DNA of 64,000 nt from Phocaeicola plebeius DSM 17135 (lineage in GTDB: Bacteria > Bacteroidota > Bacteroidia > Bacteroidales > Bacteroidaceae): assembly GCF_000187895.1 (NCBI RefSeq), contig NZ_DS990130.1, positions 558,001-622,000 of the forward strand. The letters run 5' to 3'. Shown one piece after another: positions 12,427 to 50,490 of this stretch (its first letter is position 1; every line of letters starts with the position of its first letter). Position numbers and translations under genes: made by a program. Under the pieces are notes generated by a model. That model was not told the origin of the DNA and ran no database searches. It was given only the letters and a program-made list of their open reading frames with translations.

Positions 12427-12514
12427 AAATGTCCTTGCGTTTTACTTGAAACGCAAAGGCGTTTTGACTCAAATGCACTTGTGTTTGATTTGAAATGTAC
12501 TTACGTTTTGGACT
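12427..12514. repeat. Array A: four 22-bp tandem mini-hairpin units
   Basis: Units begin at 12427, 12449, 12471 and 12493, exactly 22 bp apart. Each is a 16-nt hairpin (6-nt arm, 4-nt loop, 6-nt arm) plus a 6-nt spacer. The stems are AAATGT/GCGTTT, AAACGC/GCGTTT, AAATGC/GTGTTT and AAATGT/ACGTTT. Every one can form six RNA base pairs if G-U pairs are allowed. The array starts four bases after the ettA terminator. Confidence 0.85.
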
Positions 12515-12527
12515 GCTTCAGTAAGCT

Positions 12528-13715
12528 TCACTGAATCAACATATTTTCAACCTCTTCCAGGCATCCGTCTGTCTTCTCTGGAGTGATGTGTAGCAGGCGG
12601 GCCAGCAAGGAATAAATCGATACATTCCGGAATTTCGGAGCCTCGTATCCCTTCTTGAAATCCGGTCCGCATGCCCGGAACATCACCTGCATATCGTCGT
12701 AGGTCGGGTCGAACCCATGGGCTCCCGGAAGTGTCTTCTTGCCTTCTTCCACCAGCCAGCCTAAATCAGGCAGTACGATGATGTCGCCCACACGTGGATT
12801 GCTACCATAGTTCAAATAAGCAGGAATATCTTCTTTTTTCCATGCCCGTACGTGATTCAGTCCCTGTAGTGCCTGGTACACAGAGTCACGGTATTCCGGT
12901 TTCGTATAAATCTGTGCCGGCAGATTCCCGTCAATCAAAGTATACCATTTTTCGTTCAACAGGTGCTTGATAGGCACAAAGCGGTCTGCGCTGACAGTCG
13001 CCATTCCGTGGTCGGACGTCACAATCAGGTTGATGTCCTTTCCGAAAGGCAAGCTTTGAAGTCCTTCCCATAAGTATTTCATGAGGGCATCCAGCTCTTC
13101 CACGCAGCGGCGTGTTTCCTTGCTGTGCGGGCTATAAGTGTGTCCGTAGGTATCAGAATCCTCGAAATAAATCATAACCAGCTGGGGGCGTTCTTCTTCC
13201 GGCAGTTTCAGCATTCTCAGTGCCTCTGCCACACGCTCCGTCTGGGTGAGCCGGGGTTTCTGGTCGTACACGTGATAGTAGGTGGGGTGCTGTCCTTTTA
13301 CGGCAATGTCAGAGCCTACCCAGTAGATGTTTCCCGTCTTGACACCCTGCTTCTGTGCGGTAATCCAGATAGGTTCTCCACCATAATAAGACGCATCGTT
13401 GCGGGTTTTCAGGTTGCTCATCTTGTAAAGTTCCTGGCGCTGTGGGTCCCAGAACGTATTGGCTACGATACCATGGTGGTCGGGCACCAGTCCCGTAGCA
13501 ATGGTATAGTGGTTAGGGAATGTTTTCGAGGGGAACGATGGAATCATGGTGGCCTTTACGCCTTCATGAGCCATCCGGTCGAAGAACGGTGTATCGTACA
13601 TTTGCGGGTAGTCCCAGCGGAACCCGTCGAGGGATACAATGACGGTGTAGTGTTTTCCGGCCCAGATAGAGAGGCAGATGCACCACATCATACACAGCGA
13701 GATAATTTTTTTCAT
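12528..13715 (-). CDS. Alkaline phosphatase-fold nucleotide pyrophosphatase/phosphodiesterase (ENPP-like)
   Basis: The 395-residue product has a signal peptide (residues 1-19) and is therefore periplasmic or surface exposed. It shows the type I phosphodiesterase signature: metal ligand Asp30 in VSLDGFRWD and nucleophile Thr65 in SKTFPNHY. Further metal-binding motifs follow (FEDSDTYGH, TSDHGM and PGAHGFDP). ENPP enzymes hydrolyse nucleotide or other phosphodiester bonds; the natural substrate here is unknown. It lies 3' of the Oar-like receptor gene on the same strand, but a strong terminator between them argues against one operon. Confidence 0.9.
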   Translation of the reverse strand: MKKIISLCMMWCICLSIWAGKHYTVIVSLDGFRWDYPQMYDTPFFDRMAHEGVKATMIPSFPSKTFPNHYTIATGLVPDHHGIVANTFWDPQRQELYKMSNLKTRNDASYYGGEPIWITAQKQGVKTGNIYWVGSDIAVKGQHPTYYHVYDQKPRLTQTERVAEALRMLKLPEEERPQLVMIYFEDSDTYGHTYSPHSKETRRCVEELDALMKYLWEGLQSLPFGKDINLIVTSDHGMATVSADRFVPIKHLLNEKWYTLIDGNLPAQIYTKPEYRDSVYQALQGLNHVRAWKKEDIPAYLNYGSNPRVGDIIVLPDLGWLVEEGKKTLPGAHGFDPTYDDMQVMFRACGPDFKKGYEAPKFRNVSIYSLLARLLHITPEKTDGCLEEVENMLIQ

Positions 13716-13744
13716 AAGTCTAGTTTGTTTTTAGGGTGATAAAA

Positions 13745-13786
13745 AGAAAGGTGTATTGCCGTTCTTTTGTGGGCAATACACCTTTT
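13745..13786 (-). terminator. Terminator of the TonB-dependent receptor gene
   Basis: On the minus strand a 14-bp stem (AAAGGTGTATTGCC with its complement at 13747-13760 and 13772-13785) is followed by CTTTTTATC. Confidence 0.85.
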
Positions 13787-13807
13787 ATGTAAAGGGTTAG
13801 TCTTTCA

Positions 13808-16800
13808 TTAGAAAGTCAGTCTTACACCCACCTGGCAGTGCCAGCGTGAGCTGATATCGCTCTTCTGGATTTCAGCTTTGTTGTAAGAGAAAGATGCGAT
13901 TTTATTGCCATCTGCATCTGTAGAAAGTCCTGTCATAGTCAGCGGTGATAAGTTATAAGCTGAGCTATAGCTTGCTCCCCATTTCTTGTTCAACATATTA
14001 GCGAAGTTGATGATATCGAATGTAAATTCTAGTTTTCCAACTCCTTGCACATTGTAGATAGTTTGTGCCAAGTGCAAATCGATTTCATGCTCCCAATCGC
14101 TCAGGTTTGAGTTACGTTCAGCATATTGACCTCTATGGTTTTTGGCATAGCTATCGTTTTCAATCCATTGTTTGAATGCTTCACGACTTTCCTCTGCACT
14201 CATTGTAACATTTCCTTGTTTATCGGTAATGTCTACAAAATTCATCTTGCTGAGTTCTTCGTCTGTCGGGATATATAACAATGAGTTTCCAGACCATTTA
14301 TCACCGTTGTAATCTGATTTTTCATTCATTGTTAAACTGTAGCGACTTCCTGAGAATCCGTTGTAAATTACAGAGATAGTGGTGCTTGTCCAGCCGTTCC
14401 AATATTTCGGACTGTTGTAAGAAGCTTGAACCATTACACGGTGAGGTATATCGAATTTCGAGAAACCAAGTTCATTTCCAGAGTTGGTGTCTACAGAGTA
14501 GTTGTATTTCCAGTTAGAATAAGCTACAGAACTTGTTCCATCGTTCACAGATTTTGCATGTCCGAAAGTATATGATGCAGACAAGTCTAGACCGAAGTTG
14601 AAGCGTTTTTCCAACAAAGCAGATAAAGCATATGTGTATCCCTTATTCGTATTCTTCAGATTGATAATACTATAATAGTTACCAGAGTTGAATTGGTAGT
14701 AAGGAGCTGCAGATGCTTCATTTCCTGCTACAGCATATACTTTGTTGCCACTCTGAGTCAGTGCCAGATTTTCAAAGAACACATTGTTCATGGTCTTTGA
14801 GTAGATACCTTCCAACGTCATTTTCACGTCACCCGGCAACATCTGCTCCAATGCTAAGTTGGCACGGAATACTTGCGGGTATTTGAAGTTTTTGTCTACA
14901 GTTACAATGTCTGGTTTTGCAGAAGCACCGCTTTGTGAATTGGCAGCTCCCAGCGGATTGTCTGCATATTCTCCCAGTTTTGGTGCGTCGTAAGTGTAGT
15001 TTCCATCTGCATCTTCTGGAGTGATGGTGGTTCCTTTGCTTTCCATACCAGTGTTATTGAAAGCATTAGACAGCCATACGAACGGTACACGTCCTGTGAA
15101 GATACCGATACCACCGCGGAGCAATGTGTTGTGTGAATCGTTAGTGTACCAGCGGAAACCTACACGCGGTGAGAACAAGACTTTTGCACTAGGGTTCTGA
15201 CCTACACGTGCGTTCAGGTTCTGTGATTCAGCAAACTGGTTGAATGCGTCGTTTGTAGTCGGATTATTGAAGATAACCGGAATGTCGATACGCAATCCGT
15301 ATGTCAGATTGAAGTTGTTATTGACATCCCATTTGTCTTGTGCATAGAATCCGAACTGACCAGACTTCATAGCAGGTGCCCACTTAGTATCACCACCTGT
15401 CAGAGTTGGATCTGTATACTTATAGGTGTATTTATAAGGGCGGTCAGCAATAAAATCTTCCAATGAATTATAATACCATGAACCGTTAGAAGCTTGGATG
15501 AAGAGGTTTGTCATCTTATAGATCTCATTGTGAGTACCAAAGGTCAGTGTATGATTTCCAAGGTACCATGACAAGTTATCTTCGAAAGTGTAGATGTCCT
15601 GATCCAAGTAATTGGCTCCAGAAGAATATTCCGTACCGATGTTGGCAGTGATGTTTGTTCCGTCCGGTGCTGGAATATTGCTGATCTGTACAGTTGGTCC
15701 CTGGTAAGCTACATCACGATGGTCACGGATAAAGCTGGCGGAAGCACGGAATTCGTTGTACAAATTCTGTCCCAGGTGAGAAGTCAATTCGGCTACGATT
15801 GAGTTTGTCTTGTTATTCATGCGGTAACCGCTGTTTTCAAACATGTAGCTGGTTGAACCTACTCCATAATTGTCATCGTATGAATTGTTGTGCTGATAGC
15901 GTAATGCTAGTTTATGGTTCTGGTTGATGTTCCAGTCAATACGAGCTAGCAATCCGAATGATTTGTTATCAATGTTACGTTGTGAATATCCTTCTTTGAA
16001 GCCTGTCATATCGTAGTATGCATCTGCAATTTGCTTAGCCTGTTCAGAAGTAAGATAAGAGGTTGTATATCCCGGATAAATGCTTGAAGGATAAGATTCT
16101 TTTTTTGATTCTGCGCTTACAAAGTAGAACAATTTGTCTTTTACGATGGCACCGCCCAATGTTCCACCATAAGTACGAGTGTACTGCTGGGTGAGCGGAG
16201 ATTTTTCGTAATCACGTACGGCGCTGTATTTACCATACATATTTTGGTTGTTGAAGTAAGTGTAGGCCGAACCGTGAGTGGTGTTAGTACCCTGCTTGGT
16301 AATGGCATTGATACCACCTCCGGTAAATCCGCTCTGACGTACGTCGAAAGGAGCAACGACTACCTGAATTTCTTGGATGGCATCCATAGAAATCGGGTTG
16401 GCACCTGTCTGGCCACCGTTAGTTCCAGATGCAGACAAACCAAACACGTCGTTACTTACTGTACCGTCAATCTGGAAGCTGTTGTAACGGTTGTTTGAGC
16501 CGGCGAATGTGATACCTCCGTTCTTTGAAGTCATGGCCATCGGCATGTTCTTCACGATGTCGTACACATTACGGTCTACTGTCGGAGTGTTTTCGATTTT
16601 CTGTGTAGAGAAGTTGTGTGCGGCTCCAGCATTTGCTTTTGCATCAGCTACGACTACTACTTCGTCCAACAGTTCTGAACTTGGTTTCATTTCGGCATTC
16701 AGACTGAGTGTGTTACCCAGTTCAAGTGAAATACCTGTAAATGCAGTTTTGTTGTAACCTACGTATGAGATTTCAATTTTGTAGGGACCACCGGTACGCA

Positions 16801-17017
16801 TACCTTGGATGGTGTAACGTCCATCTACGTTTGTCACTGCACCGTAGAGAGTTCCTGACGGTTCGTGGATAGCTACCACTGTAGCACCGATAACCGGGGC
16901 TTTGGTTTCATCTAAAACTTTTCCGCTGATAGCAGAAGTCGTTACCTGAGCATTTGCGCCGACAGCCATGGCTGAAACGACCAATGCGGAATACAGGAAT
17001 TTGGAATGATGTACCAT
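13808..17017 (-). CDS. Oar-like TonB-dependent outer-membrane receptor
   Basis: This is a 1069-residue outer-membrane protein. After a signal peptide (cleavage near NAQ/VTT, residue 24) comes a carboxypeptidase regulatory-like beta-sandwich domain (about 28-115, ISGKVLDETKAPVIGATVV), then a plug domain (about 125-250, with SFQIDGTVSND and GFTGGGINAITKQGTN) and a large beta barrel ending in Phe (CQVGVRLTF). This arrangement matches the Oar/OmpA-related receptors of Bacteroidota rather than a SusC protein, and no SusD-like partner is adjacent. Transport substrate unknown. Transcription should start about 100 nt upstream. Confidence 0.9.
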   Translation of the reverse strand: MVHHSKFLYSALVVSAMAVGANAQVTTSAISGKVLDETKAPVIGATVVAIHEPSGTLYGAVTNVDGRYTIQGMRTGGPYKIEISYVGYNKTAFTGISLELGNTLSLNAEMKPSSELLDEVVVVADAKANAGAAHNFSTQKIENTPTVDRNVYDIVKNMPMAMTSKNGGITFAGSNNRYNSFQIDGTVSNDVFGLSASGTNGGQTGANPISMDAIQEIQVVVAPFDVRQSGFTGGGINAITKQGTNTTHGSAYTYFNNQNMYGKYSAVRDYEKSPLTQQYTRTYGGTLGGAIVKDKLFYFVSAESKKESYPSSIYPGYTTSYLTSEQAKQIADAYYDMTGFKEGYSQRNIDNKSFGLLARIDWNINQNHKLALRYQHNNSYDDNYGVGSTSYMFENSGYRMNNKTNSIVAELTSHLGQNLYNEFRASASFIRDHRDVAYQGPTVQISNIPAPDGTNITANIGTEYSSGANYLDQDIYTFEDNLSWYLGNHTLTFGTHNEIYKMTNLFIQASNGSWYYNSLEDFIADRPYKYTYKYTDPTLTGGDTKWAPAMKSGQFGFYAQDKWDVNNNFNLTYGLRIDIPVIFNNPTTNDAFNQFAESQNLNARVGQNPSAKVLFSPRVGFRWYTNDSHNTLLRGGIGIFTGRVPFVWLSNAFNNTGMESKGTTITPEDADGNYTYDAPKLGEYADNPLGAANSQSGASAKPDIVTVDKNFKYPQVFRANLALEQMLPGDVKMTLEGIYSKTMNNVFFENLALTQSGNKVYAVAGNEASAAPYYQFNSGNYYSIINLKNTNKGYTYALSALLEKRFNFGLDLSASYTFGHAKSVNDGTSSVAYSNWKYNYSVDTNSGNELGFSKFDIPHRVMVQASYNSPKYWNGWTSTTISVIYNGFSGSRYSLTMNEKSDYNGDKWSGNSLLYIPTDEELSKMNFVDITDKQGNVTMSAEESREAFKQWIENDSYAKNHRGQYAERNSNLSDWEHEIDLHLAQTIYNVQGVGKLEFTFDIINFANMLNKKWGASYSSAYNLSPLTMTGLSTDADGNKIASFSYNKAEIQKSDISSRWHCQVGVRLTF

Positions 17018-17123
17018 AAATTTTTAATTAAATAAATTGTAAATCTATTTTAGCGTTTTTGTTCGCTTAATTCTTTGTAGTTAAGTTCGTTGATTCTTTT
17101 TGTATTATTCCTCTTTTTCTGTT

Positions 17124-17132
17124 GCAAAGTTA
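17124..17132 (-). promoter_or_regulatory. -7 box for the Oar-like receptor gene
   Basis: The minus strand reads TAACTTTGC, a perfect -7 consensus, giving a predicted transcription start near 17118. Confidence 0.65.
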
Positions 17133-17406
17133 AAAAATCTTTTCAGCGAATAATTGGAGAGTGGACGATTTAACAAATTAGGCTGTAAATAATTAACTTT
17201 TTTATTTTGCAATAGAAGTAAATTTATTTCCGGAGTAGAATGTTTGGAGCTGATTTTGTGTGACTTGCATCGTTGTAACTATACGTAATATATTTGTAAC
17301 TTTTGACTTCAAAGGAGGCGAATTGAACAAGGTTATTGTATGAATCCTGAATTTATTTTCATTTTGCTTAGTGGTTGACTTTATTATGGACATTTGTTTT
17401 TTTGTC

Positions 17407-17415
17407 TATTTTTGC
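17407..17415 (+). promoter_or_regulatory. -7 box for the MFS gene at 17441
   Basis: TATTTTTGC matches the consensus and lies 25 nt before the start codon. Confidence 0.65.
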
Positions 17416-17440
17416 AGAATGAAAGTAAGAGTTTATCAAT

Positions 17441-18616
17441 ATGAAACAGAAATTGGAAGAGAATAATGGAATTCCGGCTTCGTTGCTGTGGATACTGGCC
17501 ATTATATCAGGACTTTCAGTGGCGAATCTGTATTATAATCAGCCGTTGCTGAATCGTATCAGTGAAGATTTGGGTATCTCGGAATTTACTGCCAATCTGA
17601 TACCTATGACCACACAGATTGGGTATGCACTGGGATTGTTGTTTATTATCCCTTTGGGGGATTTGTACAAGCGGAAGAATATCATTGTTATTAACTTTCT
17701 CTTATTGTCGGTGGCAACTTGTAGCATTGCCATGTCTGTGAATGTGTTTTACATCCTGCTGGCTTCGCTGGTGACAGGAGTTTGTTCAGTTATGCCGCAG
17801 ATTTTTATTCCGATTGCTGCACAGTTCTCACTGCCACAGAATAAAGCACGTAACGTGGGGATGATGGTCAGCGGTTTGCTGACAGGAATTTTGGGTTCGC
17901 GGGTAATCAGTGGTTTTGTAGGAGAATATTGGGGATGGCGTACGATGTATTATATTGCAGCCGTCATCATGTTGCTTTGTATTTTTGTGGTAGTTCGGGT
18001 GTTGCCGGATATGCCGCTAAATTTCAAAGGTACGTACAAAGGACTGATGAAATCGCTTTTTACGCTGTATCGGGACAATTCTACTATTCGTTTGGTTTCT
18101 GCACGGGCCGGACTTTGTTTTGGTAGTTTTCTGGCGTTGTGGGCGTGCCTGGCCTTTAAGTTGAGTGGGGAACCGTTTTATGCAGGAAATAACATCATCG
18201 GTATGCTGGGACTGTGTGGAGTGGCTGGTGCGTTGACAGCTTCTTTTGTTGGGAGTCTGGTACATAAGTTTGGAGTGCGGTTTTTTACTTTTCTAGGTTG
18301 TCTTCTTATTATCGCGGCTTGGGTTATCATGTTTGTCTTCCAGAACTCTTATTTAGGTTTTATCATAGGAATTATCGTGATAGATATCGGTATGCAATGT
18401 GTGCAGATAGGTAATCAAACCTGTGCATTGTCGCAGGCTCCCAAGGCAACTAACCGGGTGAATACCATCTTTATGACAACTTATTTTGTGGGCGGTTCAC
18501 TAGGAACCTTTCTGGCCGGTACTTTCTGGCATGCATGGGGTTGGACCGGAGTTGTCTGTGTAGGAATCGGCCTGACACTGATTTCATTGCTTGTGACACT
18601 TTTTACTCGAAACTGA
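17441..18616 (+). CDS. Major facilitator superfamily transporter
   Basis: A 391-residue inner-membrane protein with about 12 helices. The MFS loop 2-3 motif is recognisable as PLGDLYKRKN (about residues 71-80), and helix 1 has NLYYNQPLL, typical of small-molecule exporters related to YgaY-type efflux proteins. No substrate can be assigned. The next gene starts 22 bp downstream on the same strand, so the two are probably one transcript. Confidence 0.87.
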   Translation: MKQKLEENNGIPASLLWILAIISGLSVANLYYNQPLLNRISEDLGISEFTANLIPMTTQIGYALGLLFIIPLGDLYKRKNIIVINFLLLSVATCSIAMSVNVFYILLASLVTGVCSVMPQIFIPIAAQFSLPQNKARNVGMMVSGLLTGILGSRVISGFVGEYWGWRTMYYIAAVIMLLCIFVVVRVLPDMPLNFKGTYKGLMKSLFTLYRDNSTIRLVSARAGLCFGSFLALWACLAFKLSGEPFYAGNNIIGMLGLCGVAGALTASFVGSLVHKFGVRFFTFLGCLLIIAAWVIMFVFQNSYLGFIIGIIVIDIGMQCVQIGNQTCALSQAPKATNRVNTIFMTTYFVGGSLGTFLAGTFWHAWGWTGVVCVGIGLTLISLLVTLFTRN

Positions 18617-18638
18617 TTATTCAAATGAACGAATATAT

Positions 18639-19808
18639 ATGAAAAAGAATGTGATTTATTTGAACGACTGGCTGGCTATTCATCCGTATACGACAGTTTG
18701 TTCTTCAGATACGTTTTTTGTGGAGTTGGCCAATAAACTTTATGCGGTCTGTCATTTGGAGGAATTGCCTGAGACGTTTCGCAAGAATGTAAGTTTGTAT
18801 GTGGCGGCTTATCTGGAAGATATAATCTCCGGACTGGGATTGTGGCAGGGATTTGCCACTGCTCATACCCGTTTGTATGGCAGATGTCTTCCATTTTATC
18901 CTACAGGGAAAGATTATATGAAGGGAGAGGTGAACCTGGAGGATATACGTTTTATCATTTGGAATACTTGGCAGAAGGCTCCTTACTCACATAGGTATGT
19001 GAACCCGCTGGATACTGCAATTTTGAAGCAGGCACAGGCTTTTCTGCCATTACTGGAGGAAGCTTATGAGGTGGCTCCTGAGAATGAGTTGCTGAAGGAT
19101 TATTTTGCCGGATATATAGATGAAAAAGAGGCTGACAGGAAATTGTCATGGCTTTTCGGCCACACTTACCTTACGGAACCTTCTATGCTGCCTTACATTG
19201 AACGAGTAGCACCAGACGACCGTTTTATTATTCCTACGGGTCCTTTGGCATTGTTCCTTCACGAATGGATTGAGTTGTTGGCTGGTAAGCAGGCTGCGTG
19301 CTGGAAATCGGTTCCTCGTCTGTATCAGGAGGAAAAGGAAATACCGGAAAATATTCTGCAGAAGAATGCGGAGATTTATCGTCTATTTACCTTGTGGACT
19401 GGCGGACGCAAGATTATTTATCTCAACGGCTATGATTCATTGAAACGCTTCCTGGTAGAGATTCTGCAGTGGCCGGATGATGAAAATCACACCTTGCCGC
19501 AGATGAAGAGTTGCCGGAACTTTGTATTGATGGTGGATGAGCAGAAAGGGCTTTTGCTGGCGAAGGACGTGTGTGAATACATTGCCGACACGGAAAATCC
19601 TTATTACGATCGGGAAGAGGCTTCGCAAAATGCATTCCGTATGTTGACGGAAGAGATGCTTTGCCCACCGGATTTGCTGCATTATTGTATTGAGAAGAAC
19701 TTACTGCCAGATGCAGAACTGCCTGAAGTAGGAGAGAAGATGCTGGTGAAGCTTAATGCGGACTTTATTGCGCGGCATTCATTGCTTTATTATTATCGCG
19801 GCGATTGA
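18639..19808 (+). CDS. Cytoplasmic protein of unknown function
   Basis: The 389-residue product has no signal peptide or membrane helix. It is rich in aromatic and acidic residues, with a Trp/Tyr-rich N-terminal half (YLNDWLAIHPY, ISGLGLWQGF, FIIWNTWQKAP) and a C-terminal half containing DENHTLPQMKSCRNFVLMVDEQKGLLLAKDVC split over about 285-320. From memory it may belong to a Bacteroidota-specific DUF (possibly DUF3843), but I cannot verify this. It closely follows the MFS gene and ends in a strong bidirectional terminator. Confidence 0.7.
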   Translation: MKKNVIYLNDWLAIHPYTTVCSSDTFFVELANKLYAVCHLEELPETFRKNVSLYVAAYLEDIISGLGLWQGFATAHTRLYGRCLPFYPTGKDYMKGEVNLEDIRFIIWNTWQKAPYSHRYVNPLDTAILKQAQAFLPLLEEAYEVAPENELLKDYFAGYIDEKEADRKLSWLFGHTYLTEPSMLPYIERVAPDDRFIIPTGPLALFLHEWIELLAGKQAACWKSVPRLYQEEKEIPENILQKNAEIYRLFTLWTGGRKIIYLNGYDSLKRFLVEILQWPDDENHTLPQMKSCRNFVLMVDEQKGLLLAKDVCEYIADTENPYYDREEASQNAFRMLTEEMLCPPDLLHYCIEKNLLPDAELPEVGEKMLVKLNADFIARHSLLYYYRGD

Positions 19809-19816
19809 CTTTGTAT

Positions 19817-19865
19817 ATATCATAAAAAAAAGCACGAACCGAAATTCGTGCTTTTTTTATGATAT
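19817..19865. terminator. Bidirectional terminator
   Basis: A long perfect palindrome: ATATCATAAAAAAAGCACGAA pairs across a 6-nt loop with its complement, giving A- and T-tracts on both strands. It serves the unknown gene (plus strand) and galK (minus strand). Confidence 0.92.
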
Positions 19866-19878
19866 GATGGATATAGAA

Positions 19879-25797: not shown

Positions 25798-25885
25798 AGT
25801 ACTTCTTAAGGAGTACTGTAGTACTTCCACGAAAGTACTGGAATACTCTCTATGCAGTACTGGAGTACTTCTTCGGAAGTACAGG
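25798..25885. repeat. Array C: four 22-bp tandem mini-hairpin units
   Basis: Units begin at 25798, 25820, 25842 and 25864, exactly 22 bp apart. Each starts with AGTACT (AATACT in unit 3) and has its complement 8 nt later: AGTACTTCTT/AAGGAGTACT in unit 1, AGTACTT/AAGTACT in unit 2, a mismatched AATACT/AGTACT in unit 3, and GTACTTC-TTCG-GAAGTAC in unit 4, a C(UUCG)G tetraloop. The stem sequence is unrelated to arrays A and B, but the 22-bp period is identical. It lies 3' of dnaJ, beyond its terminator. Confidence 0.85.
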
Positions 25886-25997: not shown

Positions 25998-27182
25998 TTA
26001 ATCGAATAAACTTCTGAATTTCTTGAAGATTTTTTCTTTCAGGCTTGTATTTGGCTTGAAGTTCTCTGCTTCCTGCCATTTTTCCAGTGCCTGACGTTCT
26101 TCTTTCGTCAGCGTTTCCGGAATGTAGACGCTGATATTTACCAGCAAGTCGCCTGTACCGGTGTTGTAGCCGTAGCTGTTGATGTTGGGCAGACCTTTGC
26201 CGCGCAAGCGAAGTACTTTACCTGGCTGCGTGCCCGGCTCAATCTTGATTTTTGCCTTTCCGTCGATGGTCGGGATTTCTACCGTACCTCCTAATGCTGC
26301 GGTTGGTACGCTCAGCAGAAGGTTGTAGATCAAGTCACTTTCGTCACGAATGAGTTCTGGATGCTTTTCTTCCTCAATCAATACCAGCAAGTCGCCCGGT
26401 ACCCCGTTGTGTTTTCCGGCATTACCTTTTCCGTTGATGGTCACCTGCATGCCTTCAGCCACGCCGGCCGGAATCTTCACGGTTACCACTTCTTCACCGT
26501 AAACCACTCCTTCACCGTTACATTCCTTACACTTGTTTTTGATGATTTTACCTTCACCGCCGCACTGCGGACATACAGACTGTGTCTGCATCATGCCGAA
26601 AATGCTCTGCTGTGTGCGGGTTACGCTACCCGTTCCGTGACATGTAGGACAGGTTTCTGTACCTCCGTCACCTTCTGCTCCTGTACCATGACAGTGGCTG
26701 CATTCTACGTATTTCTTCAGCTTGAATTTCTTTTCAACTCCAGTAGAAATCTCCTTCAGGTTCAGTTTGACCTTTACGCGCAAGTCTGAACCACGGAATT
26801 TCCGCTGACGTGACTGGCCTCCGCCACCAAATCCACTGCTGAATCCGCCAAAGCCTCCGTGTCCGCCGAAAATATCGCCGAACATAGAGAAAATATCGTC
26901 CATTGACATGCCTTGGCCGCCAAATCCGCCAAATCCACTTCCACCTCCGGCTGCACCGTCTACTCCGGCAAAACCGAACTGGTCATAGCGTGAACGCTTG
27001 TCCGGGTTGCTCAAAACTTCGTAAGCCTCTGCGGCTTCCTTGAATTTCTCTTCCGCTTCCTTATCACCCGGGTTGCGGTCCGGATGATATTGGATGGCCT
27101 TCTTTCGGTAGGCCTTCTTTATTTCGTCTGCCGTGGCTGTTTTGGCAACCCCCAGCACTTCATAATAATCTCTTTTCGCCAT
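25998..27182 (-). CDS. dnaJ: Chaperone protein DnaJ (Hsp40)
   Basis: DnaJ delivers unfolded proteins to DnaK and stimulates its ATPase. The 394-residue type I protein has the J domain with HPD at about residues 33-35, a Gly/Phe-rich linker (about 72-120), four CxxCxGxG zinc repeats ([24 protein letters not shown] and CKECNGEG) and the C-terminal substrate-binding domain. It follows grpE by 15 bp and is in the same operon. dnaK is not in the window. Confidence 0.97.
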
Positions 27183-35271: not shown

Positions 35272-36900
<1,629 letters not shown>

Positions 36901-36908: not shown

Positions 36909-37018
36909 AAACGCCTTTGCGTTTGGAAGAAAACGCAAGGACGTTTTGATCAAAACGCTTAGGCGTTTTACTTAAAGCGCAAGTACGTTTTTGTGGAAAC
37001 GCACTTGCGTTTTTTCTG
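36909..37018. repeat. Array B: five 22-bp tandem mini-hairpin units
   Basis: Units begin at 36909, 36931, 36953, 36975 and 36997, exactly 22 bp apart. Each has a 6-nt arm, 4-nt loop, 6-nt arm and 6-nt spacer: AAACGC-CTTT-GCGTTT, AAACGC-AAGG-ACGTTT, AAACGC-TTAG-GCGTTT, AAGCGC-AAGT-ACGTTT and AAACGC-ACTT-GCGTTT. It starts eight bases after the ABC-F stop codon. The last unit ends in GCGTTTTTT and could terminate transcription. The stem family is the same as in array A, 24 kb away. Confidence 0.9.
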
Positions 37019-42135: not shown

Positions 42136-42202
42136 GATGGACAAGCATGTGAAGCAAGTCACTTGTTGAAGAAGAATCTACCAAATAAAAATAAGAAGAG
42201 TG

Positions 42203-42817: not shown

Positions 42818-42842
42818 TTTCACGTTTTGCGTAACTAATAAA

Positions 42843-44006: not shown

Positions 44007-45052
44007 TCTTCCTCCTCCTTGTAGTTTTTCAGGGCTTCCAGCAGGGTATCGTTTTCTGGGCGCGTACCGATGGTGATGCGTAAGCAGTTCTGACAGAGCG
44101 TGACACTATTCCGGTTGCGGACGATGATACCCTTGTCCACCAGGTAGTTGTAGATTTTCTTGGCATCACTGACTCGTGTCAGAAAGAAATTGGCATCAGT
44201 AGGATAGATACGTCGGCAGCAAGTAAGCTTCTGGAATTCCTGCATGAGACGGGTACGTTCGTGAAGTAAGGATTCTACCCACTGCTGTACCTGATAATGC
44301 TTTTCAATCATGTGGATGGCTTCTTGCTGGGTCAGCCGGTTCACGTTGTACGGATATTTGATTTTATTCAGCAGGTTGATGATTTCCTGAGAAGCGAAAG
44401 CCATGCCCAAACGAATACCGGCGCATCCCCATGCCTTGGAGAAGGTCTGCAGGATAATCAGGTTTGGAAATTCATCGAGCTGCTGCAGGAAAGATGTTTC
44501 ACTGGAGAAATCAGCGTATGCCTCATCCAGAATAACCAGTCCTTCAAATGAGCGAAGCAGGGTAAGAATCTCTTCCCGGCACAGACGGTTTCCCGTCGGG
44601 TTATTGGGCGAACAGAGGAAAATCAGTTTGGTGTGTTCGTCGGCAGCGGCCAGTAAGTCGGCAGCTTTGAACTGAAAGTTTTCATCCAACTGTACTTTCC
44701 GGTATTCTACATCGTTTACTTCGGCACATACCTGATACATACCGTAAGTCGGGTCGATAGCTACTACGTTGTCAATGCCCGGACGGCAGAAAGCACGGAA
44801 AGGAAGGTCGATAGCCTCGTCGCTTCCATTGCCTAAAAAAATGCGGTCTGGCGATACCTTCTTTACTCTTCCAATCAGGCCCTTTAATTCTCTTTGAAGC
44901 GGGTCTGGATAACGGTTGTTGGGGGTATTGTAGGGATTTTCATTGGCATCCAAAAATACGGAAGCCTCTTTCCCACTATATTCGTCGCGTGCCGAAGAGT
45001 AAGGCTTCAGAGCCCAGATGTTCGGTCGCGTAAGTTCTTTCAATGGTTTCAT
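44003..45052 (-). CDS. hisC: Histidinol-phosphate aminotransferase
   Basis: HisC transfers an amino group from glutamate to imidazoleacetol phosphate using PLP. The 349-residue fold type I aminotransferase shows SPNNPTGN (about 150), DEAYADFS, and the Schiff-base Lys in [16 protein letters not shown]. It is full length and lies 2 bp after hisD and 4 bp into hisB, indicating tight operon coupling. Confidence 0.95.
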
Positions 45053-45054
45053 AG

Positions 45055-46332
45055 TTATTTATTTAAACGTACGGATACTGCATTTTTGTGGGCGTCGAGT
45101 TGTTCGTTGGCTGCCATGACTTCAATGGCCGGACCAATCATGGCAATACCTTCGGGTGTAATTTCCTGGAAGGTAATTTTGCGGATGAAGCTGTCCAGGC
45201 TAACTCCGCTGTAGGCCTTGGCATAACCGTTGGTAGGAAGAGTATGGTTAGTGCCCGAAGCATAGTCGCCCGCACTTTCCGGAGAATAATAGCCTAAAAA
45301 TACGGAACCCGCATTGACAATGCGTTCGCTGATTTCCAGGTAGTCCTTGGTTTCGATAATCAGGTGTTCAGGAGCATATTCGTTGGTCATTTCTACGGCT
45401 TCATCCATATTCTTTACTAAAATCAGTTTGCTGGCAGCTAAGGAGCGACTGGCAATTTCCTTTCGGGGAAGTTGGGCCAGCTGGCGTTCTACTTCTTCTG
45501 TCACCGCCTTCAGCAAAGTCTCACTGGTGGTAATCAGGATGGCCTGGCTGTCAGTGCCGTGCTCTGCCTGTGAAAGTAAATCGGCAGCCACAAAGACCGG
45601 ATTGGCTGTTTCATCGGCCAGTACCGCTACTTCAGATGGTCCGGCCGGCATGTCGATGGCTACGTCACGTAAGGAAACCTGCTGTTTGGCGGCAGTGACA
45701 TACTGGTTGCCTGGACCGAATATCTTGTATACTTTGGGAATGCTTTCCGTGCCATAGGCCATAGCTCCGATAGCCTGCACCCCTCCGACTTTGAAGATAC
45801 GGCTGATACCTGCCAGTTTGGCTGCATAGAGAATGGCCGGGTGAATCTTTCCTTCCTTGTCAGGAGGAGTACAGAGAATGATTTCCTTGCATCCGGCAAT
45901 CTGTGCCGGAGTAGCCAGCATCAGGACGGTGGAGAAAAGAGGAGCTGTTCCACCGGGAATGTACAATCCCACTTTCTCAATGGCTACAGCTTTCTGCCAG
46001 CAAGTCACGCCCGGTAGTGTGGTGATTTTCTTTCCCTGGAATACCTGTGCGGCGTGGAATGTGCGGATGTTGTTATAAGCCAGTGTGATGGCCGCCTTCA
46101 GTTCGATGCTGACTTTCTTTTCTGCTTCGGCAATTTCTTCCTCGCTTACCAACAGGGAGTTCAGTCGCACCTTGTCGAACTTTTCTTCGTATTCCAGTAC
46201 GGCTTTATCACCTTCAAATTTGATGCGGTTTAATATTTCGAGTACGGTTTCCCGCAATGATTCCGTTTGAAGCGTCGGACGTTTCAGTAAGTCCGCCCAT
46301 GTATTTCTTTCAGGATAAGTAATGATGTTCAT
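45055..46332 (-). CDS. hisD: Histidinol dehydrogenase
   Basis: HisD oxidises histidinol to histidine with two NAD+. The 425-residue protein contains the characteristic segments [37 protein letters not shown], the signature [18 protein letters not shown], and the zinc and catalytic region [15 protein letters not shown]. Second gene of the his operon, 31 bp after hisG. Confidence 0.96.
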
Positions 46333-46363
46333 AGTAACAATCTTTGTGATGAGGTTTTGAAAA

Positions 46364-47215
46364 TCAAAGTATCATTTTCTCTATGGGCAGCACCAGGATA
46401 CCTTGTGCACCGATGGCTTTCAGCTTGCCGATGATTTCCCAAAAACATTTCTGATCGAGAACAGTGTGAATGCTGCTCCAGCCTTCTGTAGCCAATGGCA
46501 TGATGGTCGGACTCTTCACACCGGGAAGAACGGCTACGATTTCCTGTACCTTGTCGGTCGGTACATTCATCAGCACGTATTTCTTGTCTTCAGCGGTTTT
46601 GACTGCATTGATGCGGAACAGCAGTTCCTGAAGTATTTCCTTCTTTTCGTCTGACATGTGCTTGTTTCCGATGAGCAGCGCTTCGCTCTTCATTACCACT
46701 TCCACCTCCTTCAGGTTGTTGCTGATAAGGGTAGAGCCGGAGCTGACAATATCGAAGATGGCATCTGCCAGACCGATGGCTGGAGCAATTTCCACCGAAC
46801 CGGTGATGACGTGAATGTCGGCTTCAATGTGCTGTTCTGCTAAGAAGTTTTTCAGGATATTGGGATAGGAGGTAGCAATCTTTTTGTGATTGAACCATTC
46901 CAGTCCGTTGTATTCCGTTTCTTTGTGAATGGCCAGTGACAAACGGCATTTGCTGAAGCCCAGACGGTGCACGATTTCCGCTTCTTCAGCACGTTCCACG
47001 AATTCGTTTTCTCCTACAATACCGAGGTCGGCCACGCCGTTGGCCACACATTGTGGGATGTCATCGTCGCGCAGGAACAGTACTTCTACCGGAAAATTGC
47101 TGGACTGTGTCAGCAAGGTGCGTTTGGAGGTAGATAACTTGATGTCTGCTTCAGTAAACAGGGCCATTGTGTCTTCGAACAAGCGCCCTTTGGATTGTAC
47201 GGCAATTCTTAACAT
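46364..47215 (-). CDS. hisG: ATP phosphoribosyltransferase
   Basis: HisG condenses ATP and PRPP, the first committed and feedback-controlled step of histidine synthesis. The 283-residue protein is the long form, with a C-terminal regulatory domain, so HisZ is not needed. Motifs include the N-terminal RIAVQSKGRL, the D-rich substrate loop GVADLGIVGENEFVE and the PRPP loop AIFDIVSSGSTLISNNL. It is the first gene of the operon, about 30 nt after the attenuator. Confidence 0.96.
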   Translation of the reverse strand: MLRIAVQSKGRLFEDTMALFTEADIKLSTSKRTLLTQSSNFPVEVLFLRDDDIPQCVANGVADLGIVGENEFVERAEEAEIVHRLGFSKCRLSLAIHKETEYNGLEWFNHKKIATSYPNILKNFLAEQHIEADIHVITGSVEIAPAIGLADAIFDIVSSGSTLISNNLKEVEVVMKSEALLIGNKHMSDEKKEILQELLFRINAVKTAEDKKYVLMNVPTDKVQEIVAVLPGVKSPTIMPLATEGWSSIHTVLDQKCFWEIIGKLKAIGAQGILVLPIEKMIL

Positions 47216-47243
47216 ATTGTTCTAAGTTTTTAAAGTGTCAAAT

Positions 47244-47330
47244 AAAAAAAGGCTTACCGAGGAATAAATTCTTACGGCAAGCCTTTGTGTAATCTTATCT
47301 CTTGTAACTGCACGCGTCGTCAGCCTACCG
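47244..47330 (-). promoter_or_regulatory. Histidine operon attenuator
   Basis: On the minus strand a stem AAAGGCTTGCCG / CGGTAAGCCTTT (47286-47275 with 47259-47248, one G-U pair) is followed by seven T, a strong terminator just before hisG. The segment CGGTAGGCT at 47330-47322, overlapping the leader stop codon, can pair over nine positions (with G-U pairs) with GGCTTGCCG, the 5' arm of the terminator, and so serve as antiterminator. A ribosome stalled at the His codons leaves CGGTAGGCT free and allows read-through; one that finishes the leader masks it. Confidence 0.85.
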
Positions 47331-47382
47331 TGTGAACCGTTAGGTAATGATGATGGCGATGATGTACAGTATTTAAAATCAT
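47320..47382 (-). CDS. hisL: His operon leader peptide
   Basis: A 20-codon frame starting at the ATG at 47382 encodes a peptide beginning MILNTV and containing HHRHHH followed by YLTVH: six histidines in 20 residues. It sits between a complete promoter and the terminator hairpin in front of hisG. Ribosome stalling at the His codons when charged tRNA-His is scarce would favour the antiterminator. No role for the peptide itself is expected. Confidence 0.88.
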   Translation of the reverse strand: MILNTVHHRHHHYLTVHTVG

Positions 47383-47404
47383 AATTATCGTTCTTTTGTT
47401 TCGA

Positions 47405-47436
47405 CAAAAATATTAGATAAGAATTAAAAGAGCAAA
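47405..47436 (-). promoter_or_regulatory. his operon promoter
   Basis: On the minus strand TTTG (47436-47433) and TATTTTTG (47412-47405) are separated by exactly 20 nt, one of the best promoter matches in the window. The leader ATG follows 22 nt later. Confidence 0.8.
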
Positions 47437-47471
47437 TATTTATCAGAAAAAACTCGCTTTTGCTGTCAAAT

Positions 47472-47957
47472 TTATAAAGATTCCTTTTCTTTTTCCGTAT
47501 AACAGCCTTTGAAGTACATTTCCTTTTCTGCTTTTTCCCTTGGGAAAATGAAATAGGTGCAGACGGCCTTGGTGCAGACTTCATCCTGTGCATTGTAGAT
47601 TTCGGCTTCAATGAACACAAAGTTCCGTTTCTGCTCCTTGATTCTTCCTCTGAGGGTAAGGTGAGAGTCGGTCGTGTGGATGGGTTTCAGGTATTGAGTT
47701 TCCATGCGCGAAGTCACTCCCGCCGTCTGAAGTTTGCGGGCAATTACCCAGGCACATATCTCATCCAGCAGAGTTGCCTGAATACCTCCGTGAAGGGTGT
47801 TCAACCAGCCTTGAAAACGGGTTTCAGGTATCCATTTGCTCACAATCTCGTCACCGTCTTCATAGAACTCCATTTTCAGGCCCGACTCGTTGTTGGGCGC
47901 ACAGCCGAAACAGAAGTATCCTTCCATTCCTTCCCATGGATTGATGATTTTTTCCAT
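47472..47957 (-). CDS. PaaI-type hotdog thioesterase
   Basis: The 161-residue cytoplasmic protein has the hotdog-fold thioesterase pattern: WLNTLHGGIQATLLDEICAWVIARKL (about residues 50-75), where HGG and the Asp or Glu of the following helix form the active site, then RMETQYLKPIHTTDSHLTLRGRI. The N-terminus FCFGCAPNNESGLKMEF carries a cysteine pair also seen in related proteins. The acyl-CoA substrate is unknown. It is 12 bp downstream of the Dabb protein gene and probably cotranscribed with it. Confidence 0.88.
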   Translation of the reverse strand: MEKIINPWEGMEGYFCFGCAPNNESGLKMEFYEDGDEIVSKWIPETRFQGWLNTLHGGIQATLLDEICAWVIARKLQTAGVTSRMETQYLKPIHTTDSHLTLRGRIKEQKRNFVFIEAEIYNAQDEVCTKAVCTYFIFPREKAEKEMYFKGCYTEKEKESL

Positions 47958-47969
47958 GACGGCTGAGTT

Positions 47970-48269
47970 TTAGATAGTATAGTCCACGCAGGCGCGGTTT
48001 TCCTTGGCTTCTTTCAGAATGCCAGCTGCGGCTACGTGTGCCGGATGGATGGCATAAGCCTTTACGTCGTCCAGCGTATCGAAACTGCTGTCCAGACAGA
48101 TGTCCCATACTTCTGCCGGGTTTTCATTCAGTCCTACATGAATGTCACGAATAAAGGGAATAGTGGCCGGAAGAGCCTCGATGGCAGTCTTGAAACGGTT
48201 CATAATGTCGGTTTTTTCTGCCGGAGAAAGGGTTTCTTTCAATTTAAATAAAACAATGTGCTTGACCAT
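47970..48269 (-). CDS. Dabb-family (stress-responsive alpha/beta barrel) protein
   Basis: The 99-residue protein matches the dimeric alpha-beta barrel (Dabb) fold: MVKHIVLFKLKE at the N-terminus, a central helix (TDIMNRFKTAIEALPATI), IRDIHVGLN, and the C-terminal HPAHVAAAGILKEAKENRACVDY segment. Members are small cytoplasmic proteins with few assigned functions. It heads a two-gene unit with the thioesterase. Confidence 0.9.
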   Translation of the reverse strand: MVKHIVLFKLKETLSPAEKTDIMNRFKTAIEALPATIPFIRDIHVGLNENPAEVWDICLDSSFDTLDDVKAYAIHPAHVAAAGILKEAKENRACVDYTI

Positions 48270-48293
48270 GTTTGTTTGTTTTTATGATTTTCG

Positions 48294-48316
48294 TATCTTT
48301 GAATATTGCAAATATA
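48294..48316. promoter_or_regulatory. Interlocked divergent -7 boxes for udk and the Dabb gene
   Basis: The plus strand has TATCTTTG at 48294-48301 (udk) and the minus strand has TATATTTGC at 48316-48308 (Dabb gene). Each predicted transcription start (about 48307 and 48302) falls between the boxes or at the edge of the other one, so the two promoters physically overlap. Confidence 0.65.
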
Positions 48317-48339
48317 GAAATTAATTATTGAAACAAGTT

Positions 48340-48951
48340 ATGATTATCATTGGAATTGCAGGAGGAACAGGCTCCGGTAAAACAACTGTAGTGAGAAGGA
48401 TTATCGAAAGTCTGTCGGAGAATGAAGTGGCAGTGCTTCCGCTTGATTCATATTATAAGGACAGTAGTCATGTGCCCGTGGAAGAACGGCAGAACATCAA
48501 CTTTGACCATCCTTCGGCATTCGACTGGGATTTGCTCTCCAAGCATATCTCCATGCTGCGTAAGGGAGAAGCCATTGAACAGCCTGTATATTCCTATCTT
48601 ACCTGTACGCGCCAGAAAGAAACCGTGCATGTAGAACCCCGTAAGGTCATCATCATCGAAGGTATTCTGGCCTTGAGCGACCGCAGACTGTGCAAGCAGA
48701 TGGATTTGCGTATTTTTGTGGATGCCGATCCGGACGAACGTCTTATCCGTGTCATCCAGCGGGATGTGATAGAACGCGGACGTACGGCTGAGGCGGTGAT
48801 GGAACGTTATGTGCGTGTGTTGAAACCCATGCACCTGGAGTTTATCGAACCGGCTAAAAGAATTGCCGACCTGATTGTGCCGCAAGGAGGTCATAATGAA
48901 AAGGCCATCGAGATTCTGAAGATGTACATTGAACGAATCGTAGACAAATGA
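48340..48951 (+). CDS. udk: Uridine kinase
   Basis: Udk phosphorylates uridine and cytidine in pyrimidine salvage. The 203-residue P-loop kinase shows Walker A GGTGSGKTT (about residues 7-15), LPLDSYYKD, NFDHPSAFDWDLL and IIEGILAL. I start at the ATG at 48340 rather than the TTG four codons earlier. Its stop overlaps the start of the lytic transglycosylase gene by ATGA, so the two are translationally coupled although they act in different compartments. Confidence 0.95.
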   Translation: MIIIGIAGGTGSGKTTVVRRIIESLSENEVAVLPLDSYYKDSSHVPVEERQNINFDHPSAFDWDLLSKHISMLRKGEAIEQPVYSYLTCTRQKETVHVEPRKVIIIEGILALSDRRLCKQMDLRIFVDADPDERLIRVIQRDVIERGRTAEAVMERYVRVLKPMHLEFIEPAKRIADLIVPQGGHNEKAIEILKMYIERIVDK

Positions 48952-50324
48952 AAGGCTGGATAACGGGGCTGTGCTGTGTGCTGGCCCTTTTTTTGTTTTT
49001 TTCGTGCGGCTCTGAGAAAAAAACGGAAGAGACTGCCGTCGATTTACCGCAGATTCAGGAAAGAAAGGAACTGGTGGTGCTGACTGTCAACAGCTCTGTG
49101 TCTTATTTCCATTATCGTGGTGAACCTATGGGATTCCAGTACGAACTGGCCCAGCAGTTTGCCAAGTCGCTGGGACTCGACCTGAAGGTGAAGGTCGTGA
49201 AAGACGAAGAGCAACTGGTCAGCAGTCTGCTCAAAGGAGAAGGTGATTTGGTTGCCTACAACCTGATTATTACCAACCCGCTGAAAGACAGCCTGATTTA
49301 TTGTGGTGAAGAAGATATTACGCGGCAGGTAATCATACAGCGAAGAGGGAAAAAAGCTTTGAAAGACGTTACGGAACTGGTAGGAAAGAAAGTCTATGTC
49401 AATTCTGGAAAATACCGTACCCGTCTGGAGAACCTGAACCGCGAACTGGGAGGGGGAATCGATATTTGTGAGATTTCCTCCGACAGTGTGTCTTCGGAAG
49501 ACCTGATTACCTGGGTGGCAGAGGGGCGTATTGACTACACGGTGGCCACAGATGAGATTGCCCGCATCAACCGCACCTATTATCCGGTGCTCGATATTAA
49601 CCTGGCCATCAGCTTCGACCAGCGTTCTTCGTGGGCTGTGCGGAAAACTTCTCCTTTGCTGGCAGAGGCCGCTGATAAATGGCATCGCGAAAACATCAAT
49701 TCACCGGAGTTTCGTGCCAGCGCCCGCCGTTATTTTGAACTGGCCAAACGTCCGGCACACGGAGCCATTCTTTCCGTAAAAGACGGCAAGATTTCCCACT
49801 ACGATGATTTGTTCCGGCATTATGCCAAGGAAATAGGCTGGGACTGGCGACTGTTAGCCTCGCTGGCCTATACCGAATCGAACTTTAATCCGAATGTCGT
49901 ATCATGGGCCGGAGCCAAGGGGCTGATGCAGCTGATGCCAGCTACGGCACGTGCCATGGGAGTGCCGCCGGGCAAAGAGCAGGATCCGGAAGAGAGCATC
50001 AAAGCTGCTGTGAAGTATATTGCCGGAATGCAGCGTACGTTTAGTAAAATCACGGATAAGGAAGAACAGGCCAAGTTCATATTGGCCGCCTACAATTCCG
50101 GTATCGGCCATGTGACCGATGCCATGGCATTGGCTGAAAAATACGGACGTAACCGCTACATCTGGGAGCATCATGTGGCCCACTTTATGCTGTTGAAAAG
50201 CAATAAGGAGTACTATCAGGACCCTGTCTGCAAGAACGGGTATGTGCGTGGAAGCGATACCTATGAGTTTGTGCATGAAATACTGGCACGTGCGGAGCTT
50301 TACCGAAAGAAGATAAAGAAATAA
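48948..50324 (+). CDS. mltF: MltF-like membrane-bound lytic transglycosylase
   Basis: The 458-residue product is a lipoprotein (FFSC lipobox, Cys at about residue 21). It combines an ABC-type solute-binding (SBP_bac_3) domain (about 35-265) with a C-terminal SLT lysozyme-like domain (about 280-430; catalytic Glu310 in YTESNFNP, then GAKGLMQLMPATA and AAYNSGIGHV). This is the MltF arrangement: it cuts peptidoglycan to anhydromuropeptides, with the binding domain acting as an allosteric sensor in E. coli MltF. It is full length and coupled to udk. Confidence 0.93.
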   Translation: MKGWITGLCCVLALFLFFSCGSEKKTEETAVDLPQIQERKELVVLTVNSSVSYFHYRGEPMGFQYELAQQFAKSLGLDLKVKVVKDEEQLVSSLLKGEGDLVAYNLIITNPLKDSLIYCGEEDITRQVIIQRRGKKALKDVTELVGKKVYVNSGKYRTRLENLNRELGGGIDICEISSDSVSSEDLITWVAEGRIDYTVATDEIARINRTYYPVLDINLAISFDQRSSWAVRKTSPLLAEAADKWHRENINSPEFRASARRYFELAKRPAHGAILSVKDGKISHYDDLFRHYAKEIGWDWRLLASLAYTESNFNPNVVSWAGAKGLMQLMPATARAMGVPPGKEQDPEESIKAAVKYIAGMQRTFSKITDKEEQAKFILAAYNSGIGHVTDAMALAEKYGRNRYIWEHHVAHFMLLKSNKEYYQDPVCKNGYVRGSDTYEFVHEILARAELYRKKIKK

Positions 50325-50347
50325 ACAACTGAAAAGTTGGGTTTTAT

Positions 50348-50388
50348 AAATAGCCTGAAGTTTTTGCGGAAGCTTCAGGCTATTTTTT
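50348..50388 (+). terminator. Terminator of udk-mltF
   Basis: AATAGCCTGAAG pairs with CTTCAGGCTATT around a loop of about 11 nt and is followed by a T-tract. Confidence 0.88.
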
Positions 50389-50490
50389 ATGTCTCCCGTT
50401 GCGGAAACATAAGTCTCTCAGTGCGGAAATATAGGTTTCCCTATCGGAAACCGTACGGTTTATGTGGGGGAAACGTAGAAAACTTTTCAG
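50389..50490. repeat. Array D: decayed tandem mini-hairpin units with about 22-bp period
   Basis: GGAAA(C/T) recurs at 50403, 50425, 50446 and 50469 (spacing 22, 21 and 23). GGAAAT-ATAG-GTTTCC in unit 2 is a full six-pair RNA hairpin; units 1, 3 and 4 have partial complements (GTCTCT, GGTTTAT and CTTTTC). A partial unit, GTCTCCCGTTGC, precedes the first at about 50391-50402 and matches the tail of unit 1. It begins right after the mltF terminator. The rest of the gap up to the arsR promoter at 50618 is AT-rich with no feature I can name. Confidence 0.6.

Follow-up and report, generated by a model that had tools for sequence, protein, structure and literature searches.

We analysed a stretch of 64,000 nucleotides from Phocaeicola plebeius DSM 17135 (contig NZ_DS990130.1 of assembly GCF_000187895.1, positions 558,001 to 622,000; hereafter the window), in which four intergenic tandem arrays are built from short palindromic units that recur every 22 bp. 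An earlier note on this DNA had pointed to the arrays, and all four are present where it placed them. The arrays and the genes and hairpins beside them are the following, in coordinates of the window:

10668..12356, + strand: ABC-F protein (two ABC_tran domains and ABC_tran_Xtn), presumably EttA, upstream of array 1
12383..12420, + strand: two extra AAACGC-type units in the same 22-bp phase as array 1, likely the terminator hairpin of the upstream gene
12427..12508, no strand: array 1, AAACGC family, four units AAAYGY-N4-RYGTTT plus a 6-bp spacer, exact 22-bp steps
12528..13715, - strand: type I phosphodiesterase family protein, convergent neighbour of array 1
25798..25883, no strand: array 2, AGTACT family, four units AGTACT-N8-AGTACT plus a 2-bp spacer, exact 22-bp steps
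25998..27182, - strand: DnaJ, its 3' end facing array 2
35281..36900, + strand: ABC-F ATPase, upstream of array 3
36909..37012, no strand: array 3, AAACGC family, five units, exact 22-bp steps
48948..50324, + strand: SLT transglycosylase with an SBP_bac_3 domain, which we take to be MltF-like, upstream of array 4
50348..50385, + strand: terminator-like hairpin of the gene upstream of array 4, which begins 5 bp later
50391..50474, no strand: array 4, GTTTCC/GGAAAC family, four units GTTTCC-N6-GGAAAC plus an NTAN spacer, exact 22-bp steps

The period of 22 bp holds in all four arrays; the 22/21/23 steps that had been given for array 4 become 22/22/22 in the right register. The claim of three unrelated stem families also stands, with AAACGC in arrays 1 and 3, AGTACT in array 2 and GTTTCC/GGAAAC in array 4, as does the position 3' of genes. 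Stop codons lie 70, 114, 8 and 66 bp from arrays 1, 2, 3 and 4, and belong to the open reading frames (ORFs) 10668-12356(+), 25998-27182(-), 35281-36900(+) and 48948-50324(+), respectively; in array 2, the 5' end of the other neighbour is equally far away (114 bp). The two units at 12383..12420 pair with each other and, by eye, are preceded by an A-run and followed by a T-run; a terminator scan did not call them as a terminator. When both are counted, array 1 has six units from 12383. The final unit of array 3 is terminator-like as well (36995-37014). Rfam covariance models at gathering score matched none of the arrays in the window. Their sole match was a bacterial class A RNase P RNA (RF00010) at 1-334 on the minus strand, cut by the window edge.

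Beyond the window, the 22-bp arrays are real and more extensive than first noted. Arrays were surveyed in 1.66 Mb of the 4.42-Mb genome (all of contig C6, 760 kb, with 500 kb of C2 and 400 kb of C3). A sequence-free detector, which looks for four consecutive units of any sequence that are mutually alike and self-complementary, placed 55 of 449 intergenic segments at period 22 and none of the 449 at each of periods 18, 19, 20, 21, 23, 24, 25 and 26 (score at least 4). At a score of at least 3.5, 57 were found at period 22, and 1, 0, 0, 1, 0, 1, 2 and 0 at the other periods in the same order. One shuffle of every segment gave no detection at periods 20-24. The earlier note had staked its claim on an enrichment of period 22 over 20-24 and on an excess of self-complementary units over shuffled sequence, and both were found. 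In Tandem Repeats Finder (TRF) output, intergenic rows with at least 2.8 copies numbered 28 at period 22 against 0-1 at every other period from 16 to 31 in C6, and 14 against 0-2 at other periods in C2. A first scan for hairpin trains with loose stems gave no information, as it returned 36 trains at period 22 and 32-51 at every other period.

Searches of the whole genome with array patterns (up to 3 mismatches, reversed pattern as control) retrieved 239+234 matches for AAACGC against 5+5 in the control, 46+46 against 1+2 for AGTACT and 56+49 against 0+0 for GTTTCC. A fourth 22-bp family, CTCGACACG, occurs outside the window; the detector found this family as CTCGACACGTACGTGTCGAG, with four units each, at three sites (C3:73225, C6:266545 and C3:313751), together with a weaker GTTTCC-like array at C6:532471. 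One GTTTCC 28-mer is found at three places (C6:758128, C14:1529 and C14:335292), at least two of them near contig ends, and perhaps lies beside a repeated operon that breaks the assembly. One AAACGC 28-mer occurs at both C5:1672 and C11:74206, the sole identical pair noticed among the AAACGC matches listed.

A search of the 1.66 Mb for the first three families (at least three units; steps of 21-23 or 43-45 allowed) yielded 57 arrays, 33 of AAACGC, 17 of GTTTCC and 7 of AGTACT, or about one array per 28 kb of chromosome. Of 212 steps, 208 measure exactly 22 bp and the remaining four 21 or 23 bp. Copy number is nearly fixed: 32 of the 33 AAACGC arrays have five or six units, and all seven AGTACT arrays and 14 of the 17 GTTTCC arrays have four, so that 53 of 57 carry the usual number of their family. 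An earlier, looser search (at least two units, 1.26 Mb) gave 41 arrays, none with two units. We considered a minisatellite or variable number tandem repeat and rejected it, given units that have diverged outside the half-sites, the exact steps and the nearly fixed copy number; gain and loss of whole units does occur.

Units of AAACGC read AAAYGY-N4-RYGTTT and are separated by a 6-bp spacer; those of GTTTCC read GTTTCC-N6-GGAAAC and are separated by an NTAN spacer, of which the TA is strongly conserved (1.4-1.8 bits). Half-site columns mostly hold 0.8-2 bits, values that are raised because the units were chosen by their half-sites, and most loop and spacer columns hold 0-0.4 bits, the outer loop columns being exceptional at about 0.6 bits. 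Intervals between half-sites alternate between 10 and 12 bp in AAACGC and GTTTCC, and between 8 and 14 bp in AGTACT. In three six-unit arrays, array 1 included, the first two units can pair, by eye, as the likely upstream terminator while remaining in phase.

The earlier note read the arrays as selected for structure and phasing rather than for sequence. Phasing at two helical turns, with sequences that differ by family and genome, agrees with this; pairing in place of sequence does not. The stem sequence itself is kept inside each family, and in AAACGC and GTTTCC, the two arms vary independently. When right arms were redealt among units with the detection score kept, paired cells numbered 797 observed against 808 shuffled in AAACGC (174 units) and 259 against 269 in GTTTCC (67 units). 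Matched double changes, in which one arm would compensate for the other, were 21 against 26.3 and 11 against 15.8, respectively. The 28 AGTACT units are nearly invariant, which makes the test uninformative for that family. In 34 of 67 GTTTCC units, pair 2 is a mismatch (G.A in 17, T.C in 17) that breaks the stem on either strand.

These results bear on the idea that the arrays act as RNA hairpins in 3' untranslated regions, stabilising transcripts or serving as backup terminators. The window arrays do lie 3' of genes, one end unit is terminator-like, the three six-unit arrays hold a likely upstream terminator in phase, and minimum-free-energy (MFE) folding energies of the four window arrays are below those of shuffles (z -2.5 to -5.5). 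In these folds, however, each unit pairs with another unit and no ladder of unit hairpins is formed. Mismatches of the G.U type at tandem-gene sites show no clear preference for the sense strand (37 sense against 32 antisense in AAACGC; 24 against 17 in GTTTCC). Relative to the contig, wobble mismatches favour the plus strand (106 to 52 in AAACGC, 49 to 22 in GTTTCC; mostly C>T on plus), and because 15 of 16 segments from the two contigs used show a positive GC skew, a leading-strand mutation bias fits this twofold excess. Moreover, 7 of 16 GTTTCC arrays lie between divergent genes, and RNA pairing needs neither an exact 22-bp step nor the spacing of about 8 kb described below. Since the arms vary independently, stem-breaking mismatches are common in GTTTCC, G.U pairs show no clear strand preference and unit hairpins are missing from the folds, the 3'-end stabilisation suggested in the earlier note is unlikely. 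On the results of arm shuffling, strand preference and folding, we rejected an RNA hairpin function as the main explanation, and we consider this alternative very improbable. What is kept, half-site sequence and helical phase, points to a dimeric protein that would bind double-stranded DNA.

The arrays also avoid each other, a feature that the earlier note does not mention. Those of the window lie 13.4, 11.1 and 13.5 kb apart, and in the set of 57, all neighbours are at least 8 kb apart, although 12.6 closer pairs would be expected from random intergenic draws (0 of 2000 reach 0) and 12.2 from orientation-matched draws with gaps of at least 150 bp (0 of 3000). Distances of 5, 8 and 12 kb were tested together, having been chosen after the regular spacing had been seen, and neighbour pairs are depleted at all three. 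Between families, no neighbours fall below 8 kb, where rotating the families relative to one another gives 8.4 (0 of 5000). That unrelated families exclude each other points to a function that they share on the kilobase scale. For the three fourth-family arrays, the closest member of the set of 57 is 8.7, 9.6 and 10.7 kb away. In the rest of the genome, 53 arrays among the matches listed include one neighbour below 8 kb against 9.5 expected (0 of 5000); here the ends of C1, C5, C7, C11-C14 and C16 were guessed from the last match, and C2:533442 and C14:6299 were left out as single weak matches.

The same pattern was seen in Bacteroides mediterraneensis (locus record L075; we take genome G020 to be this species), the relative compared throughout. 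Its homologue of the ABC-F protein upstream of array 1 is the closest in the named genome collection (99%), followed by those of Phocaeicola coprocola and another Bacteroides (both 98%). Among the matches listed for this species, 95 arrays include two neighbours less than 8 kb apart, where a uniform null gives 16.2 (0 of 5000); between families, the count is 2 against 9.9 (12 of 5000). The two species are not fully independent in this respect because they are related and some arrays are common to both. In P. plebeius, pairs reach their expected number again at distances above about 9 kb. We therefore rejected the idea of a lattice, as the counts describe an exclusion zone of about 8-9 kb followed by roughly random spacing. 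In gap-length variation, all families together are regular (coefficient of variation 0.65, P 0.0005) and AAACGC alone weakly so (P 0.03).

Gene context, assigned with a simple ORF caller, differs by family. AAACGC arrays are over-represented in convergent gaps (13 of 31 against a background of 54 of 379, p=3.6e-4) and rare in divergent ones (2 of 31 against 111 of 379, p=0.0055), and in tandem gaps, 14 of 16 are nearer the 3' end. Among GTTTCC arrays, 7 of 16 are divergent and 1 of 16 convergent; the divergent share does not differ significantly from background (p=0.26) and does differ from AAACGC (p=0.004). These are four Fisher tests, of which one is not significant. AGTACT arrays are convergent in three of seven cases and tandem in four. 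A scan of 10 of the 18 genes beside divergent arrays gave one DNA-binding candidate, a Penicillinase_R repressor.

The 3'-end and convergent bias of AAACGC would suit a supercoil buffer, in which the arrays offer phased, easily wrapped platforms for gyrase or another topoisomerase at gene ends and relieve positive supercoils, as proposed for the repetitive extragenic palindromic (REP) elements of Escherichia coli. According to the part of PMC3733652 available, E. coli REPs are targeted by gyrase, and REP cleavage at ORF 3' ends may relieve excess supercoiling. Helical phasing, a length of 85-125 bp and a density of one array in about 28 kb and the exclusion zone would fit this role too, and differing sequences with the same phase would suit wrapping. 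Nevertheless, the half-sites are conserved within each family more strongly than wrapping needs, and GTTTCC lacks the convergent bias. We regard a supercoil buffer as unlikely, although it is the leading alternative.

Across the genus, the AAACGC pattern (up to 2 mismatches) was matched at least once in 29 of 61 genomes, with counts from 1 to 490, and not at all in the other 32. Elsewhere in the order, 148 genomes had 0-4 matches each, and with 3 mismatches, counts in 59 genomes of the phylum were like those of the reversed control. The detector found 10 segments in B. mediterraneensis, all at period 22. In another relative, G008, it found four at period 21, two at 22 and one at 23; two of the period-21 segments are CTCCAAAG arrays with four units. 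Over 400 kb of this genome (L251-L270), arrays are mostly of period 21 (CTCCAAAG...CTTTGGAG, AAAAGAACTAGATCTTTT) rather than 22.

Arrays of 21-23 bp built from other sequences are nevertheless present across Bacteroidales. In 80 Bacteroidales loci fetched by their ABC-F gene, segments scoring at least 4 numbered 17 at period 22, 6 at 21, 2 at 23 and 1 at 19, with none at 20, 24 or 25; at 3.5 or more, they numbered 20, 8, 6, 3, 3, 3 and 0 at periods 22, 21, 23, 19, 20, 24 and 25. Some of the loci detected, such as L102 and L055, are plain tandem repeats. Palindromic units were also counted by period in C6, C2, B. mediterraneensis, G008 and the 80 loci (TRF and column shuffling, p 0.02 or less). 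Between genes, 34 of 84 arrays at period 21-23 have such units, against none of 48 at 14-20 or 24-30, and within called ORFs 9 of 47 against 2 of 135. These counts indicate a period of 22 in P. plebeius itself and one near two helical turns elsewhere. The detector found nothing in E. coli (100 kb), and in ten other Bacteroidota (8 kb each), it found no segment at a score of 4 or more and one at 3.72; both controls show little because they hold 10 and 15 kb of intergenic DNA, respectively.

Presence and absence of arrays at orthologous sites, the high copy number and the uneven counts within the genus (0 to 490 pattern matches per genome) are features of a selfish dispersed element, REP-like or akin to a miniature inverted-repeat transposable element (MITE). 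An exclusion zone would follow if such an element avoided existing copies in the manner of transposon target immunity. Against this, loops and spacers of 25 AAACGC arrays, compared between loci, gave a best pair of 0.71 against 20 shuffled maxima of 0.64-0.77; being no more alike than shuffled units, they give no indication of recent copying from one locus to another, and we rejected recent dispersal on this ground. On C6, 14 arrays fall in the part compared with B. mediterraneensis, six of them with flanks inside the stretch fetched from that species, where three of the six sites have an array. At the three sites without one, the surrounding intergenic stretch differs or is shorter, and no clean insertion junction is seen. 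The Y1 (IS200-like) transposase profile PF01797 matched nothing in the P. plebeius genome at E 0.001, and matched in 5 of 14 control genomes. Immunity would also need to cross unrelated families. A selfish element seems to us slightly less plausible still than a supercoil buffer.

Single sites show how the arrays change. At the site of array 3, P. plebeius has five units, the close relative G053 six, B. mediterraneensis five, and G042 and G009 four, the differences being whole 22-bp units. At the array 1 site, B. mediterraneensis has four units in phase, the terminator pair included, against six in P. plebeius. By eye, the array 4 site of B. mediterraneensis has a four-unit GTTTCC array in phase, with stems kept and loops differing; in the stretches read, G008 has a 22-bp array of another family there, and the very close G053 has no array. 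Between C6:627225 and position 1501926 of contig C1 in B. mediterraneensis, one unit core is exactly reverse-complemented with the following spacer unchanged, as if the hairpin core had flipped. Whole-unit changes between close species, and a core reversed as template switching could do it, would agree with a neutral by-product of slippage and template switching at palindromes. Such a process does not account for one half-site recurring at many scattered loci whose spacers are unrelated, nor for a near-fixed copy number or mutual exclusion between families, and of the explanations weighed, we find this the least credible.

Among known systems, REP elements and bacterial interspersed mosaic elements (BIMEs), with GTAG-tagged REPs and REP-associated tyrosine transposases (RAYTs), are similar in being short extragenic palindromes in many copies. 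Here, by contrast, the steps are fixed at 22 bp, arrays have four to six units, and several unrelated, interleaved families exclude each other. With no Y1 transposase match in the genome, we rejected mobilisation by a RAYT, and a REP/RAYT origin is not supported. In the matS/MatP system, single short palindromic sites of one sequence for one protein are dispersed along the chromosome. The arrays share the many dispersed palindromic sites, but each of theirs is a ladder in helical phase, and the spacing is common to several sequence families. Helically phased tandem sites that stack protein dimers are also known as plasmid iterons and ParR/parC centromeres, with one or a few per replicon near rep or par genes. 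The phasing is common to both, whereas the arrays described here recur about once per 28 kb of chromosome.

Porphyromonas gingivalis, like P. plebeius a member of Bacteroidales, has intergenic tandem arrays of similar period. The accessible part of PMC4596501 describes BrickBuilt, a MITE with 23-nt intergenic tandem repeats, 19 elements and predicted long stem loops, and reports 41-, 23- and 22-nt repeats in strain W83. BrickBuilt elements have 1 to 22.8 repeats with a leader, a tail and terminal inverted repeats, and that part describes no palindromic unit, fixed copy number or spacing rule for them, in contrast to the nearly fixed copy number here. GTTTCC arrays share short T-run and A-run borders (by eye, in flanks of 12-14 bp). 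BrickBuilt and the 22-nt repeats of W83 may be relatives in a broad sense. We found no description of arrays such as these for Bacteroides or Phocaeicola in the open-licence papers listed by our searches, and they are not mentioned in the available portions of PMC5771137 and PMC6344855.

Conserved half-sites, independent arms and helical phasing are what a protein-bound operator ladder should display, and all three are found. On balance, and with moderate confidence, we consider that each array is probably a ladder of four to six palindromic sites for a putative dimeric, sequence-specific DNA-binding protein, and that the arrays form spaced nucleoprotein platforms with a shared chromosome-scale job. 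With units every two helical turns, successive dimers would share roughly one face of the helix and could pack together as a compact nucleoprotein block some 85-125 bp long, which would act on double-stranded DNA and not as RNA hairpins. The several families would presumably differ in their protein or its specificity but share one job, needed at most about once per 8 kb, such that a second array nearby would be redundant or harmful. In our opinion this job would be structural, as an insulator, a determinant of topology or a barrier to read-through. Of the roles suggested in the earlier note, 3'-end RNA stabilisation is thus the one that becomes unlikely, and the protein-binding ladder, the roadblock and the supercoil buffer remain candidates.

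Several observations weigh against a protein ladder with one shared job. The spacing has exceptions: the two close pairs of B. mediterraneensis among the matches listed, at 6.4 and 7.5 kb, are both cross-family; an AGTACT and an AAACGC array in P. plebeius (C14:308109 and C14:311844) lie 3.7 kb apart; and C14:6299, if included, would add another gap below 8 kb. GTTTCC alone is not regularly spaced by gap length (P 0.65), nor does it share the context bias of AAACGC, so the families may not be equivalent. Two of the 33 AAACGC arrays lie inside called ORFs. In two other Bacteroidales loci (L061:1934-2061 and L071:3326-3442), both arms seem, by eye, to change together between neighbouring units, which sets them apart from the families of P. 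plebeius. Whole units can be gained or lost (array 3 and its counterparts have four to six). In 25 of 29 other members of the genus, inspection by eye of the first 300 bp of that site showed no AAACGC array, and arrays of these families were not found in B. mediterraneensis at three of the six syntenic sites. With turnover this fast, no single site looks essential.

A wider proposal, which we advance tentatively and would sooner doubt than accept, is that Bacteroidales chromosomes are marked by phased nucleoprotein ladders of several families, kept at a minimum distance of about 8 kb irrespective of family. Unrelated sequences would then be read as the same landmark, a topological boundary or anchor, and from species to species one family would give way to another, with phase and spacing retained. 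Should the spacing rule hold, families of unrelated sequence within a genome must perform a common job across kilobases, and the arrays would expose a layer of chromosome organisation in a dominant gut order.

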